Source: Spirochaeta africana DSM 8902
GTDB taxonomy: Bacteria > Spirochaetota > Spirochaetia > DSM-27196 > DSM-8902
DNA: 64,000 bases
Direction of reading: 5' to 3'
Assembly: GCF_000242595.2 (NCBI RefSeq)
Contig: NC_017098.1
Coordinates: 1,736,001-1,800,000 of the forward strand
The notes beneath the pieces were generated by a model. That model saw only the letters and a list, made by a program, of their open reading frames with translations. It searched no databases and was not told the DNA's origin. This document shows, piece after piece, positions 47,812 through 54,800 of this stretch; the first letter of the stretch is position 1, and every line of letters begins with the position of its first letter. The translations under genes and the position numbers were made by a program.

Positions 47812-48196
47812 GGGGGTGTACCGGATTCGACTGTGACAGGTATACGTTGTTAGCTGCAAGCGGAGCGCTGACTCCTAAAACCGGCACTAAAAGTTATCTG
47901 CCAAAAACGAAGATAACGTTGTCGAAGTTGCTTTTGGTAACGACGACACAATGCTCGCTGCAGCGTAAGCGCACGAGCACGGGCTCTGTAGACGCCGCCT
48001 AGAGGCTGCAGGTGCTTGTTATAAACCAAGGCTTGCTGTGTGTCGCGGTCTGACGGCACATGGGACTCATATCAGACCTACAGAATGCACGGCGGGTTTC
48101 GCGGCCTCGGCATTCTGGAAACCTTAATGCGAAACTAAGCTTGTAGATGTTAGCTGCGGCCGTCGCAGGACGCGGGTTCGACTCCCGCCACCTCCA
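47812..48196 (+). ncRNA. ssrA: tmRNA (ssrA)
   Basis: Transfer-messenger RNA that rescues stalled ribosomes with SmpB. The 5' end GGGGGTG pairs with CACCTCC at the 3' end (7-bp acceptor stem), and the T-arm GCGGG TTCGACT CCCGC lies at 48172-48188. A 3' discriminator A (48196) follows, but CCA is not encoded (TGT comes next). The tag frame is 47900-47968: resume codon GCC, 22 residues starting AKNEDNVV and ending TMLAAA, then TAA. It lies between the IMPase gene and the prophage integrase; the 3' end is the likely phage attachment site. Confidence 0.95.
48168..48196 (+). other. Probable phage attachment core (attL) in the ssrA 3' end
   Basis: The T-arm and acceptor 3' strand of tmRNA (GGACGCGGGTTCGACTCC...), a favourite target of tyrosine integrases. 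An integrase gene begins 92 bp downstream and phage genes follow. No second copy occurs in the window, as expected if attR lies beyond 64000. Confidence 0.65.
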
Positions 48197-48288: not shown

Positions 48289-49503
48289 ATGGCACGATAC
48301 CGATCAAAGCCCTACGGACTGGTGGCTCGCCGGCTGGCGACGGCCACCGTCTGGTACTACTACCACTATGAATCAGGACAGCGCTCGAATCTCATATCGA
48401 CAGGCATCGGGTTTACCCGCGAGCGGGATCGCGCTCGCACCCGCCGGGAGGCTACCGATTACTGTGAGACCCTGGTCGAGCTCGGCAAGCTGGGCGGGAA
48501 TGCGGGGAAACAAATCACCCTGCAGCGGTTCGTCGAGCTGACCGCGTTCTGGGATTGGCATCGATCCGACTACATTCGCGGGATCATCGCCAGGACTGAA
48601 TCGGACAGCCCAGGGATCTCAGAGACATATGTCAGGACAGCTGCTCAGATCACGCGCGACCATATCCTGCTAGCTCATGGGAGCAAGCTGCTGGACAGCA
48701 TAAAACCGCAGCACCTCGAGGATCTGCTCTTTTCCTGGTCGCGGTCTGCATCGCATAAATCCGCGAATAATCGCCGGAGCGTGTACTCGGTGATTCTTGG
48801 GGAGGCTACCCGGCTCGGCCATATTTCGGCGAACCCCTGGGCTCGGGTGCCGCCGTTGAAACCGGCAAAGAAACCGCGGGGAGGTTTGACCATCGCCGAG
48901 GTGTCCCGAATCCTCGAGCGCCGGCATGATGACATGATCAGCGCCGCCCAGCGCTGCTATTATCTGGGGACGAAAATCGCGTTCCTCTGTGGCTTGCGGA
49001 TTGGTGAGGTTCGCGGTCTGCTATGCGATGATGTGATCGATGTCGACCGGGGTGATGTCCGGATGTCGTATCTGTCGATCAGTAAACAGCATTCCCAGAA
49101 ACTCGGCAAGCTCACGCCCACCAAGGATAAAGATACCAGGAACATACCGATCAGCGCCGACCTCCGGGGAGAGCTCGAACCGCAGCTGACCGGCGCCGGC
49201 CGGTATCTGTTGAGCATCCATCCCCGCCAGGCCACGCCGATCAGCGAAAACAAGATGAGGGACTGGTTCTATCGACGGATGGATCTGGTCGGGATCACTG
49301 CAGAGCAGCGGACAGAGCGCCGGATCACGTTCCATTCCGCTCGCCGGTTTTTCAATACCTTGCTGCGCCAGGCCGGAGTCGCTGACAGTATCGTCCAGCG
49401 GTTCACCGGCCACGACTCTGACGCCATGACCGAACACTATACCGACTACTTGCCCGAGGATCTGCAGAGTATCATGACAGCCCAGGACAGGCTGCTCAGT
49501 TGA
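48289..49503 (+). CDS. int: Phage tyrosine integrase
   Basis: Site-specific recombinase of 404 residues. An N-terminal AP2-like/arm-binding region (WYYYHYESGQRSNLISTGIG), a SAM-like core-binding domain (about 95-180) and a catalytic domain are visible. The catalytic domain has LCGLRIGEVRGLL (first Arg, near 238), TFHSARRFFNTLLRQAG (H-x-x-R, near 350), FTGHDSDAMTEHYTDY (His, then the nucleophilic Tyr near 383). It starts with AGAGG 10 nt upstream of ATG. Located 92 bp from ssrA, it almost certainly drives integration there. Its 3' end overlaps the convergent late frame at 49496 by 8 bp. Confidence 0.95.
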   Translation: MARYRSKPYGLVARRLATATVWYYYHYESGQRSNLISTGIGFTRERDRARTRREATDYCETLVELGKLGGNAGKQITLQRFVELTAFWDWHRSDYIRGIIARTESDSPGISETYVRTAAQITRDHILLAHGSKLLDSIKPQHLEDLLFSWSRSASHKSANNRRSVYSVILGEATRLGHISANPWARVPPLKPAKKPRGGLTIAEVSRILERRHDDMISAAQRCYYLGTKIAFLCGLRIGEVRGLLCDDVIDVDRGDVRMSYLSISKQHSQKLGKLTPTKDKDTRNIPISADLRGELEPQLTGAGRYLLSIHPRQATPISENKMRDWFYRRMDLVGITAEQRTERRITFHSARRFFNTLLRQAGVADSIVQRFTGHDSDAMTEHYTDYLPEDLQSIMTAQDRLLS

Positions 49504-49984
49504 TGACAGACCAGACCAGCAGCCCTGTCAACCCGACGATGACCCCGCGGTGAGCCCAGCGTTCAATCTGCATCCTCCGGAGCATCTGCCGTTCCGTCTG
49601 AATCCTGTCCTCCCTGTAATCGCTGAATGTCTGCGATAATATCTCGCGCGATGTTTCGAGAATCTCGTGCGACTCGGTCAATCTCTCGATATGCCTGTTC
49701 GCGTCGATCAGACTCTGCTCTGTCTCTTGCAAGCTGATCCGCAAGCTCTGCAGCGTGAGATTCTGCCTCTCTGAGCGCTTGCGCTGCTCGATCTCTCTCG
49801 CTTGCAATTCGCTCGACAGTCTCCCGAGCTCGATCTGATTCTGCTCGAGCTGCAGCAGCTTCTCGACGGTACTGTTCAGCCAGCTCTCGCTCACGCTGAC
49901 CATCAGGTCTGCTGATAAAAAAGCAGGTGAAATAGCCAGCGATAAATACCAGCAGCACAATAATAATCTGAGTTTGCATGTCAC
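49496..49984 (-). CDS. Coiled-coil protein with N-terminal signal and C-terminal membrane helix, nested frame (spanin-like)
   Basis: A 162-codon frame lying +1 to, and almost completely overlapping, the 142-codon frame at 49563-49991. It has an N-terminal hydrophobic signal (LRLLLCCWYLSLAISPAFLSA, written here as about residues 5-25), a continuous coiled coil (about 40-140, for example VEKLLQLEQNQIELGRLSSE) and a C-terminal membrane helix (GVIVGLTGLLVWSVI). Its GC-ending codons (CTG, CAG, GAG, ATC) match the other genes better than the partner frame does. Signal, coil and terminal anchor resemble a spanin; there is no clean lipobox. Start GTG 49984. Real expression is not proven. Confidence 0.5.
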   Translation of the reverse strand: MTCKLRLLLCCWYLSLAISPAFLSADLMVSVSESWLNSTVEKLLQLEQNQIELGRLSSELQAREIEQRKRSERQNLTLQSLRISLQETEQSLIDANRHIERLTESHEILETSREILSQTFSDYREDRIQTERQMLRRMQIERWAHRGVIVGLTGLLVWSVIN

Positions 49985-49991
49985 GCCTCAC
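49563..49991 (-). CDS. Rz-like membrane-anchored coiled-coil protein (i-spanin candidate)
   Basis: A 142-residue protein with an N-terminal membrane helix (IIIVLLVFIAGYFTCFFI, about 9-26) and a long Arg/Glu/Ala coiled coil (ELAEQYRREAAAARAESDRA and on to about 125), the layout of lambda Rz-type inner-membrane spanins. Its GTG overlaps the holin-like stop (GTGA), with GGGGGAGGG 5 nt upstream, the same coupling used by the neighbouring lysis genes. An ATG at 49979 is an alternative start. Most of it is shared in another frame with the 49496-49984 ORF. Codon use is richer in CGA and GCA than neighbours, so one of the two frames could be fortuitous. Confidence 0.6.
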   Translation of the reverse strand: MRRDMQTQIIIVLLVFIAGYFTCFFISRPDGQRERELAEQYRREAAAARAESDRARETVERIASERDRAAQALREAESHAAELADQLARDRAESDRREQAYREIDRVARDSRNIARDIIADIQRLQGGQDSDGTADAPEDAD

Positions 49992-50209
49992 TTCCCTCCC
50001 CCGTATCCGTCTTGCGCTCCGTGGCTATCGGAGTCGCCAAAATAGAACGCGATGATCATGCTGACAGATCCTGCCATGCCGCCGAGCAGGGTGAGCAGCA
50101 CCTCGCGATTACCCTGGGGGATCTCGATGAAAAGCAGGAATCCGAGCATGATGAAAAAACCGAGCGAGAACACGACCGCAATGGTCAGCCTGACTTTCCA
50201 GCGGCTCAT
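49988..50209 (-). CDS. Holin-like small membrane protein
   Basis: A 73-residue protein with two membrane helices (LTIAVVFSLGFFIMLGFLLF, about 8-27; VLLTLLGGMAGSVSMIIAFYF, about 37-57), a short charged loop and a Gly/Asp-rich polar tail (FGDSDSHGAQDGYGGGK). Size, topology and position between a putative endolysin and the spanin-like frames fit a class II holin that permeabilises the inner membrane at lysis. It overlaps both neighbours by 4 nt. Confidence 0.7.
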   Translation of the reverse strand: MSRWKVRLTIAVVFSLGFFIMLGFLLFIEIPQGNREVLLTLLGGMAGSVSMIIAFYFGDSDSHGAQDGYGGGK

Positions 50210-50697
50210 GCTGTCCCCCAGATGCTGTACAGCAGCCGCCGGATAATCCGGTGCTTATTGATTTCAGACCCGGCTTGCTCAGGGTTATGCGGATCATAGA
50301 TCTCGACCTCGCGCCGGTCGTGCAGAGTAAAGTGTCCGTCAGCGCCGTCTGTCTGCCAGTGCGCGATCATGTACTCCCAGGGGACTGTCTGGACGTGCTC
50401 AGGGTTCCAGCCGACCTGACGGCCGCGCCTGTCAGATCCCAGCAGCTGGAAAGCCTGGTCGATCAGCCAGTGCTCCCCGGATCCCGCTCTCATCAGATCG
50501 TTGACGATGACATCCGGCTCCCGCCGGCCGCGTTCCAATAGCGCTGTGACCTGCTCGATGGTGAGAGCTTTGCCGGTAACAAACTGTGGGATCGCGATCA
50601 GCGACATGACTCGGCAGCCGTATCGGTTTACCTCCCAGGGGAGTCGCGGGTCTGTCTGGTATATGATTTCGTTCTGGATTCTTTGCGCGAATGTCAT
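50206..50697 (-). CDS. Cys-His-Asp peptidase-like protein, putative endolysin (DUF261-like)
   Basis: A 163-residue protein without signal peptide. NRYGCRVMSLIAI (Cys28), DGHFTLHD (His122) and IYDPHNP (Asp135) are spaced like the catalytic triad of C39/NlpC-type papain-fold peptidases. The overall look recalls DUF261 proteins of Borrelia, from memory and not checked. In this position, between a membrane/coil protein and a holin-like protein with 4-nt overlaps on both sides, it could be the phage peptidoglycan-cutting enzyme; no other endolysin candidate is visible in the late region. Activity is inferred. Confidence 0.6.
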   Translation of the reverse strand: MTFAQRIQNEIIYQTDPRLPWEVNRYGCRVMSLIAIPQFVTGKALTIEQVTALLERGRREPDVIVNDLMRAGSGEHWLIDQAFQLLGSDRRGRQVGWNPEHVQTVPWEYMIAHWQTDGADGHFTLHDRREVEIYDPHNPEQAGSEINKHRIIRRLLYSIWGTA

Positions 50698-50960
50698 GAG
50701 CAGCCGCTCCCGAGCTTGTCGACGATCTCGCGGATGTGTTTCAGCTGCTCAGCGATTACCGCGAACTGCGTCGCGGTCTGGCTCTGCTCTCGCCTGATTT
50801 CGACTATTTCGTCAGCATGGTATCTCAGTCGCTGTTCATGATCGGCGACCCTGCTCCGCAGACTCACGAACATGGCTGTCACGCTGACTGCTGCGCTGAC
50901 AATGGACACCAGTGCCACTGATACCATGACGACACTGATCTGAATTTCTGTAATTAGCAT
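50694..50960 (-). CDS. Small membrane/coiled-coil phage protein (XhlA-like)
   Basis: An 88-residue protein: N-terminal hydrophobic helix (ISVVMVSVALVSIVSAAVSV, about 8-27) followed by a charged coiled coil (RSRVADHEQRLRYHADEIVE ... AEQLKHIREIVDKL). It resembles holin-accessory or XhlA-type proteins but with the membrane helix at the other end. ATG 50960 has AGGGGAG 8 nt upstream, and the GACTATATAAG motif lies 25 bp upstream. It is the first gene of the lysis cluster and overlaps the next gene by 4 nt. Confidence 0.65.
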   Translation of the reverse strand: MLITEIQISVVMVSVALVSIVSAAVSVTAMFVSLRSRVADHEQRLRYHADEIVEIRREQSQTATQFAVIAEQLKHIREIVDKLGSGCS

Positions 50961-51196: not shown

Positions 51197-51811
51197 TTAT
51201 TCGGGCAGCTTCGGCCATTCAACCGCATGAGGAAACCCCTCCTGCTGAGGGACGTCCCTCAATTCCTGCATGTAGCGATCGAGATCATCGATACTGTCTG
51301 TCGGTTCCTTCCCCATGCGAACCTCGCTCTGGTGCCGAGCGTATCGCCATTCAAACTGTGATATTCTGCTATCCCTCTCAGCCCGAACCTCTGCCGCTTT
51401 CCTTTCTCTGTGCTCATCCTCTGTGATCCGTCCGACTTCCAGCAGCTTGTCGTCATCGCCCTGCAGCACCTTCTGAGAATCATGGTCGATGTATTCGTTC
51501 GACATGAGCTCCATCACTCCCTCGGTGACAAAATCATACCGGGTTTTCTTCACGATCTGATTGTCTACTACTTTCTGCAGCACCGTCCCGGTCGGCTCTG
51601 GGTCGCCATCTACAGCGGTTTCCAGCTGCAACAGCCCATCATCTACAAGATCCTGTAGCGGCCGCAGCTTCCAGCTTTCGTCCAACTTACGGATGTCGTC
51701 GCCTACCATTGCCTGGTGGTCGCCGGGTATCTGGGTATACTCCGGTGACATTTCCCTGTTGGTCGCGATTACCTTGGTGATTTTCCCGTTCTCGACTTTG
51801 GCATACTGCAT
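51197..51811 (-). CDS. Tail-fibre-assembly-like protein
   Basis: A 204-residue protein opening MQYAKVENGKITKVIATNRE, a pattern common to small proteins encoded after tail-tip genes (caudoviral tail fibre assembly or peptide-leader types). A charged, mostly helical C-terminal half follows (TEDEHRERKAAEVRAERDSR), with a final PHAVEWPKLPE typical of tail-associated proteins. The ATG at 51811 overlaps the stop of the 1537-residue gene (TAATG) and has AGAGGAAAG upstream, so I prefer it to ATG 51829. The exact role is inferred from position. Confidence 0.6.
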   Translation of the reverse strand: MQYAKVENGKITKVIATNREMSPEYTQIPGDHQAMVGDDIRKLDESWKLRPLQDLVDDGLLQLETAVDGDPEPTGTVLQKVVDNQIVKKTRYDFVTEGVMELMSNEYIDHDSQKVLQGDDDKLLEVGRITEDEHRERKAAEVRAERDSRISQFEWRYARHQSEVRMGKEPTDSIDDLDRYMQELRDVPQQEGFPHAVEWPKLPE

Positions 51812-54800
51812 TATTCTTTCCTCTCCCATATTCTAATTGTTCGGTTTCTTGGCCAGGTGTCGCCTGATGTGCTTGTTGAAGCCTTTGAATCTGGGGAGTT
51901 CGCAGAATCAAAAATAATAATAAATCGACTCCCTGATGAACCTTGCTGGAATCGATCTACGTTACTTGTGTCCCTTCTTGTGAAAACACCATCCTCTCCG
52001 AATCCTCCTCGATGCACGGTCTCGTGCTCACCCCAAGTTCTTTGAGATTGGTCGGACTGCTGTCCGCCATTGAAACTTAGCGCATCGCCCCCCTCAGCGC
52101 GAAAAAAGTCGCCTGGAAATTCAGAGGATATGTTCTCCCAGACACCGGGGAGACCAAGTTCATCAGGTGATTTCTTCCCGGGGTATTGTGTGTATGTCTT
52201 GCCAACAGGACATAACGTCGCTATCGCCTCAGCTTTGGCAATACTGAGGATATTCTGTTCTTCCTCAGATACTTCCAGGTCAATCAGTTGCTGGTTCTCT
52301 ACTTGCCCGATTATTCTCTTGTGATCGATATAGTACCCTTTCAGGGTATTGTCGTAAGATGGTAGCGGCAATGTAGTGGTCGAAAGGTTCCCGTTTTCAT
52401 CAGACAAAACCTTTGCCCCCTCATCCACCTCGACCACTCTGCTCTCCGTCAGGTGCTGTAGAACTCCATTCACGTCCCAATAGCTCCCCGGATGCAGGGT
52501 CAGAGCGCTCGCGTATACCACCTCCACCAAGCTGTCAGGCGTCTGCTCTATGAAAACGCCTCCGACATACCTACCGATGACACGGTCGTCGCCGATGTAA
52601 TGGCCGTTTCGCTCAGTATCCAGCTCCGGGAGATCTTGCTCGACTCTGTGCAGGTGCCCATCGTCAGTGTATAGAACCAGCTGATCTGTAGGCGTCCTTG
52701 TGGCATCGATGACACGCGCCCCGGTCACGGTGTGATGCGAATGCTGATATCCGAATCGGTGGATGATGTGCACCCGCCCAGGATTACTGATCGCGAATAC
52801 ATTTCCGAATCTGTTCACCGTAAAATCCAGGACAGTGCTGACCCCAGAATCCTCAATTGTGAATGTCCATGCGTCCCAGCTGTTAGGGTCGCCGGACAAT
52901 GCGTGACGGGATACGCTTTTCCCCTCGCTGGTGTACAGGAACCCACCTCGAGCTTGTATCTTATGAGCGAATCCCAGAGAGGTGTTCCTGCTCATCTGCC
53001 ATTCGGGGCCCCCATCATCAGAGCTGAGGCAAGCTATCTGTGTGGTCGTCAGCAGATACACTTTGCCATCATCTGCAGAAACCGACACAATATCACCTGA
53101 GAACCCGCTGGATACAGTCCAAGCTATCGACATATCAAAGGTGTCGATCTTGCGTACTGTGCCAGCGCTGCAGATGTACAGATGATCATCAAGGTCGATC
53201 GCCATTGTGACAGCATTCTCGAGCCCGGTCTCGAGTGTACCGCTCTGCAATCCTTGTATTTTCCCTATATTGTTCCCGACAATGCCGTACAGGGTTTCAC
53301 CTGCTCGATCTGCCAAGATTATCGGCTGGGAAAAGCTGACATCATTCTGGATGTCGTGACTGCCGTCCCTGTAGACAGCTTTGATTGATCCGTCGCTGTA
53401 CAGTGTGTAAGATGTCCGGGATCCAGTAATCGCTACCCCGACAGCCTCAGCTGGTCCTGTAGTGTTGCTCCATTCTTGAGTTCCAGGGAAAGAAAATCCT
53501 TGAACATTGCCATTAGTTCCAGAGACAACATACTCATCAGGCCAGATATAATTGACCCCGATGACCTCGCTTGTCTCGTCCACTCGTCCATTGATCTCAA
53601 TTTTCGATCCTGAATCGATTTCAATCCTCATTAGCGATTCGAGGTGAATTTCTAATTCAAGTTTCCCCAAGTACAGTGTATACGGTGAGACCGATGGGAT
53701 GACATCGATCGCCCCGCGGTTTCCGATCAGTCTGGGAATGTGCACCGGTTTCTGAGAATCCATCCTGACAGATTCCGACGATCCCCGAATCTGGATCTCA
53801 TTCGCCCAGCTGCCAGATGACCACCGCTCTATAGTGACCCCGTCCTCGCCGCCTGTTATGCGGTATAGTGGGTCTCCGTCTATTAGCTTCCAGGTGAATG
53901 ACTTGCCACCATGTTCGAGCTGTATTCCGTCACTGAATGATATTAGATCGGAGCTTGTGAGCTCGAGGTCAGCGCCATGCAGTGCCACTTGTGGATCTGT
54001 ACTGCTTGTCCCTCCGTTCGGATTCATTGGGTCACCCGGTGGATAGAATGCCAGGTAAGCATCAGGCGTCCCGACTCGCCAGTACCCCGCCCGGTGTACC
54101 AGTGTAGCGCCGTCATAGTAGTCTTCTAAATACCAGACATTGAAATCACCAGCTGACGCACCTGGAACCGCGTCGATGATCCTACCGAATACTGCATTGA
54201 TCGCGGCCAGATCCTGGACATTGAACCGCTCGGCGTCCAGTGATTTCCTGACCACGTCTGTCGCGTTCGCCCCCTGCGCGACAATCTCAACAGGATCAGA
54301 CCAGTCCCCGATGTTCTCCTGGCCGTCTGTCTGCCGGGTTCGCGCCCGGTAATAGTAGGTTGTGGCTTGTGGATCGGGTGGATCGTCATTCTGTCCCTCG
54401 AGCGGCAGCGCCTGGAAATATCCATTCGTGTTGATTGTGAGCCATTCGCCAGAAACAGCTTTCCAGTTATCTTCGCCTGCTCGGGGATCAGTATTTGTCG
54501 CCGGCCGGTGCCAGTTGCTGCCGTCTTTGCTGATCTGCAGATCATAGGCCAGCGCCCCGAACACGTCTGGTCGATCCCAGCTAATCGTTACATTCCGGCC
54601 GCCATAGGTTGCGCTGATCTCGAGTTTTGGCGGTTCCCAGGTAAAATAATTCGATATGTCGACAGACTCGATCGCCCAGGGACTCACCTCATCGCGCTTT
54701 GTCCGCTGCCTGATCCGGAAATAGAATGTCTTGAAATAATCACCCTGTTCATAGAATGATTTGAGCAGGTTCTGAAAGATAAAAAACTCGCCGGTAAAGG

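Follow-up and report, generated by a model that had tools for sequence, protein, structure and literature searches.

The two almost coincident reading frames found over about 450 bases at one end of a spirochaete prophage, here called P and X, are very probably both coding; two-frame coding at this locus is well supported by comparison with related prophages. Their products form, quite likely, a two-protein pair that replaces Rz/Rz1 in the last, outer-membrane-disrupting lysis step of spirochaete phages. To our knowledge, bacteria and their phages rarely contain long same-strand dual-coding pairs with two structured products and demonstrable constraint on both frames. A search of the open-access full-text literature on spanins and spirochaete prophages recovered neither a pair of this kind nor a spanin from Treponema and, as far as this literature was searched, the P/X arrangement appears not to have been described for phage proteins that break the outer membrane.

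Organization of the locus

The window, i.e. the whole 64 kb stretch of DNA analysed here, is part of a 3,285,855-base spirochaete chromosome and contains a minus-strand prophage ending at an integrase that adjoins the tmRNA gene. Judging from this adjacency, the tmRNA gene is probably the integration (attachment) site of the prophage. The gene order towards the integrase was tail protein, tail fibre assembly protein, a 57-aa ORF, an XhlA-like protein of 88 aa, a 163-aa protein, a 73-aa holin-like protein and P/X. The features were as follows:

47812..48196, plus strand: tmRNA gene, adjoining the integrase gene
48289..49503, plus strand: prophage integrase, convergent with X (Phage_integrase, E=5e-19; phrog_1, E=1e-42)
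49496..49984, minus strand: X, 162 aa, with a Sec-type N-terminal signal, a long coil and a C-terminal transmembrane (TM) segment
49563..49991, minus strand: P, 142 aa, type II-like, with an N-terminal TM segment and a long periplasmic coil, i-spanin-like
49993..50003, minus strand: Shine-Dalgarno-like GGGGGAGGGAA, read from the sequence directly 5' of the P and X start codons and common to both
49988..50209, minus strand: holin-like gene, 73 aa, two TM segments (phrog_9990, function unknown, E=2e-10)
50206..50697, minus strand: candidate endolysin, 163 aa, with weak DUF261 matches among its relatives in sister cassettes
50694..50960, minus strand: XhlA-like or holin-like protein with TM segment and coil, 88 aa (weak matches to XhlA and to phrog_1296, holin)
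51197..51829, minus strand: phage tail fibre assembly protein, giving the prophage context (Phage_tail_APC, E=3e-20, and phrog tail families)

The initial annotation had described two strongly overlapping minus-strand frames of 162 and 142 codons, and both were recovered at the positions listed. In the window, X starts 7 nt after P and lies in the +1 frame relative to it, with 139 codons in common. Both frames start with GTG (P has an additional ATG 12 nt downstream), and the stop codon of the 73-aa holin-like gene overlaps the start of P (GTGA); in relatives, the holin-like gene is likewise located directly before P/X. The third frame of the same strand contained six stops across the P/X stretch. 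GC3 was host-like in X (0.73) and lower in P (0.38), in line with the codon endings first noted for the longer frame.

The topologies initially proposed, an N-terminal anchor with a coil for P and a signal, a coil and a C-terminal anchor for X, held up as well. AlphaFold predicted P as a helix (2-26) followed by a single helix (30-131; pLDDT 87), and X as a short N-terminal helix followed by a continuous helix (20-161; pLDDT 89). Since this predicted helix 20-161 ends in a TM segment, X probably belongs to the type I inner-membrane proteins. Among P homologues, hydropathy indicated a conserved N-terminal TM segment. P weakly matched the Rz-like spanin family phrog_89 (E=2e-4), matches to Rz PHROGs being of E about 1e-4 and between coils; no curated family covering P or X was found.

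Distribution of the pair among spirochaetes

Direct searches gave no close relatives of the window X in genome contigs, viral contigs or 148 related genomes, nor did a search of the phage collection give any match. Homology was therefore reached through the neighbouring 163-aa gene, which led to Treponema-type genomes. In two of the loci found in this way (L006 and L007), the same gene (157-159 aa) and the holin-like gene were followed by two coincident frames, with like topologies and frame relation. Their X protein, used as a query, retrieved homologues from many Treponemataceae genomes, the similarity of the window X to the Treponema X profile being borderline only. The P/X pair was thus found at about 30 spirochaete prophage loci, among Treponemataceae, in the window's own order (L042 and L073) and in a third family (L124 and L141-L143; three prophage copies). 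Carriers, as given by isolate and MAG names, comprised Treponema bryantii B25, whose cassette (L053) is intact, and rumen Treponema MAGs, together with IMG/VR contigs. One match (L003) was false, a short coil within a large unrelated ORF, and L038 and most weak coil matches were discarded as they sit in unrelated long ORFs.

All true homologous loci displayed X in the +1 frame of P and like topologies, with starts at most 10 nt apart. Start separations were -7, -4 or +2 nt (the +2 case overlapping as ATGTG), 5 nt in L042 and L141-L143, and about 10 nt in a short pair (L109) whose P has only about 84 codons. At homologous loci the P frame was open over more than 100 codons of overlap, the third frame over at most 55.

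Several variants of the pair were observed. A single in-frame deletion of about 45-50 codons shortened both frames in one genome (L086, G558), and both anchors were kept. At two loci (L138 and L144), the genes for an Rz-like and an X-type protein (the latter in phrog_38323, E=1e-46) were staggered and overlapped only in part. Both partners can therefore occur without overlapping fully; this version is a possible evolutionary intermediate. An intact P/X was also present in a 1,139,633-bp single-contig treponeme (L032 / L079, G119:C1:228122-228565), directly after a VanY-type D,D-carboxypeptidase gene. This copy was apparently chromosomal, had no obvious prophage genes nearby and may represent relic or domesticated lysis genes.

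Position in the lysis cassette and proposed function

P/X comes after the endolysin and holin genes, in a cassette composed of a C39-, CHAP- or DUF261-type endolysin gene, a holin-like gene and P/X. The endolysin position was occupied by a C39 peptidase or CHAP gene in other cassettes and by the 163-aa gene (50206-50697, minus strand) in the window; DUF261 may be a cysteine-peptidase endolysin. Different genes were found at this position in three cassettes of a single genome (L141-L143, G070) that have the same holin and P/X, a case of modular endolysin swapping. A 38-kb T. bryantii-type prophage had the order C39-peptidase endolysin, 85-aa holin-like protein, P/X, XhlA-like protein, Mu gp27-like protein and terminase. 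Phage Mu has its spanins, gp23/gp23.1, after the endolysin gp22 (PMC9239132), and synteny with gp27 and terminase placed P/X of Mu-like prophages at the position of Mu's spanins.

To survey the occupancy of this slot, loci with the same holin-like gene were retrieved and their downstream gene(s) inspected; contig ends and one odd locus (L101) were uninformative. P/X was found at most loci. Two loci (L106 and L107) had, in the same slot, an Rz-type protein and an overlapping Rz1-type lipoprotein (phrog_456 match). In another Treponema prophage (L105:950-1483, minus strand), the slot held a u-spanin-like lipoprotein (LLFNGC) with a coil and a C-terminal TM segment; the other two frames of this gene, which served as a negative control, were full of stops.

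By analogy with these occupants, a spanin-like role of P/X is likely. P would be an inner-membrane protein held by its N-terminal anchor, with its coil in the periplasm, and X would be exported by its Sec signal and held in the inner membrane by its C-terminal anchor, its coil also lying in the periplasm. Translation of both from one ribosome-binding site would fix their ratio. The two proteins would then pair through their coils, antiparallel in sequence and with both anchors in the inner membrane, so that the C-terminus of P and the N-terminus of X would face outwards, and the pair would act on the outer membrane. Owing to the common start region, start-codon choice and subunit ratio are directly testable.

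Speaking against a spanin is the lack of a lipobox in X and in most P proteins, by which the classical bridge between inner and outer membrane is not provided. Both proteins may instead be real and serve lysis or the envelope in another manner than outer-membrane disruption, as a holin/antiholin pair, a factor for endolysin release, or a system for anchoring or exclusion. This would agree with the prediction of P and X both in the inner membrane, without an outer-membrane anchor, and with the 1.1 Mb Treponema copy outside any obvious prophage; moreover, Mu gp25, a membrane-tethered protein, serves endolysin release (PMC9239132). However, the cassettes already have a holin-like and an XhlA-like gene, sister prophages fill the same slot with classical Rz/Rz1 or a u-spanin-like protein, and the slot in Mu-like prophages is the place of Mu's spanins. 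Another role is unlikely, and a spanin-like pair is retained as the preferred reading.

Evidence for coding by both frames

From the window sequence alone, the case for two genes was modest. Open frames by themselves prove little, because eight other nested ORFs of at least 130 codons occur in the 64 kb, and ORF length as such was rejected as evidence. When X was held fixed and its own synonymous codons were permuted, P was open in 0.065% of trials; with P fixed, X was open in 22%. Coil shape alone is no evidence either, because the coil periodicity of one frame partly passes to the other: the periodicity of P had a power of 11.9, as compared with 6.4 after permutation of X codons and 2.3 with shuffled residues. 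The presence of a coil in both frames was consequently rejected in part as evidence, real P being nevertheless more periodic than the by-product expected from X codons. Such carry-over suggests a route by which one coil gene could give rise to another by overprinting.

What decides the case, on sequence comparison, is that relatives conserve both frames. Interruption of one frame with conservation of the other, which the initial annotation had set beforehand as the outcome that would count against it, was not encountered: both frames were open in every true homologous locus examined. Null expectations were derived by fixing one protein, permuting its synonymous codons and scoring the other frame. 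The median chance of an open frame per locus, for loci mostly 25-30% identical in amino acids, was 0.006 for P given X and 0.05 for X given P. P proteins resembled one another more than under the X-fixed null (153 pairs, median z 5.7), and X proteins more than under the P-fixed null (median z 8.2), for loci that are not phylogenetically independent and under a permutation that takes synonymous sites as saturated, a reasonable premise when amino-acid identity is 25-30%. The window and a relative of the same order gave z values of 5.2 (P) and 2.6 (X). By this measure, the conservation of each protein is greater than the other frame alone would impose.

Substitution patterns in the overlap also displayed the two-frame constraint for which a check had been proposed. 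Differences at the first, second and third codon positions numbered 10, 10 and 9 for the pair L019/L029 and 31, 43 and 40 for L022/L026, whereas neighbouring single-frame genes of the same pairs showed a third-position excess (8, 7, 25 and 20, 10, 46, respectively). Pooled over five pairs with no locus in common, substitutions were distributed as 29/35/36% in the overlap versus 26/19/55% in flanking genes (chi-square p=6e-10). Between the two loci of the window's own order, L042 and L073, changes in the overlap fell at P third positions in 7/8 cases, with only one P residue differing, and those in the X-only tail at X third positions in 5/5. The original view that neither frame can be dismissed is thus borne out by conservation and constraint in both.

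That X is the sole gene, with P left open only as a side effect of coil-coding DNA whose codon usage is host-like, is highly improbable. The host-like GC3 of X, the passage of some coil periodicity to the other frame and the chance nested ORFs of the window would all fit, but every homologue had an open P, where the median chance is 0.006 per locus, P-P similarity surpassed the X-fixed null, and the overlap was devoid of an X third-position excess; the concentration of L042/L073 changes at P third positions, the Rz-like PHROG matches and the conserved N-terminal TM segment of P point in the same direction. Equally hard to sustain is the converse, an Rz-like i-spanin P as sole gene and X as its by-product: the spanin PHROG matches do belong to P and an open X is likelier given P (0.05 as the per-locus median and 0.22 for the window), but X-X similarity well above the P-fixed null, conservation of the X-only tail including the C-terminal anchor with mostly third-position changes, and persistence of an X-type protein (phrog_38323) in the partial overlaps of L138/L144 all argue for X.

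Comparison with known spanins

P/X is not a canonical spanin. The initial annotation had regarded both frames as spanin-like, which agrees with the spanin slot of the lysis cassette, beside holin and endolysin, and with P, whose N-terminal TMD and periplasmic coil are those of an i-spanin. It does not extend to X as an Rz1-type or u-type protein, because a lipobox is absent: no canonical lipobox was seen when X signals were read by eye in homologue alignments, and the P of the window has none either, so neither protein corresponds to an o-spanin, i.e. an outer-membrane lipoprotein. In one Treponema lineage, a genome with three prophage copies (L076, L077 and L078, G390; adjacent CHAP endolysin), P had a lipobox (LFSGC) and X the usual topology; in this case P would serve as the outer subunit and X as the inner one.

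With the embedded spanins Rz/Rz1 of lambda, P/X shares two out-of-frame proteins from one stretch within a lysis cassette, Rz1 being also in the +1 frame, and the Rz-type i-subunit resembles P in its N-terminal TMD and periplasmic coil. Out-of-frame overlap was found at all P/X loci (X = P+1) and, staggered, in L138/L144. The lambda o-subunit is an outer-membrane lipoprotein, whereas X has a Sec signal, a C-terminal TM segment and no lipobox. A new nested pair of long coils, as first suggested, is supported as an arrangement, but the starts are almost coincident and not nested like Rz1 in Rz: in about 70% of embedded spanins the o-subunit start lies 0.4-0.5 of the way along the i-spanin (PMC6139136), whereas the P and X starts lie within 10 nt of each other and both products are long coils.

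U-spanins of the T1 gp11 type are like X in having an N-terminal signal, a periplasmic domain and a C-terminal TMD. They differ in their lipoylation signal, which L105 combines with the C-terminal TMD and X lacks, in a mainly beta periplasmic domain, X being predicted as one continuous helix, and in that X is accompanied by P. Regarding Mu gp23/gp23.1, the likeness lies in gene order, since Mu-like Treponema prophages have endolysin, pair, gp27-like gene and terminase; gp23.1 is a short Pro-rich outer-membrane lipoprotein (PMC9239132), in contrast to the long coil of X with its C-terminal TM segment.

It is conceivable, although we propose it tentatively, that P/X represents a new class: two inner-membrane coiled-coil proteins of opposite topology, mostly without lipoprotein, sharing nearly all of their coding DNA, with nearly coincident starts and one ribosome-binding site from which initiation would set the ratio, occurring in spirochaete phages and with one copy maybe domesticated in the 1.1 Mb treponeme. 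In the passages of Kongari et al. 2018 considered here, a type I i-spanin is put forward as possible, outside the authors' own search criteria and with no example given; X has the predicted topology that matches this hypothetical protein. If P/X is a spanin, an outer-membrane lipoprotein would not be essential to the spanin concept, and the type I i-spanin foreseen by these authors would exist.
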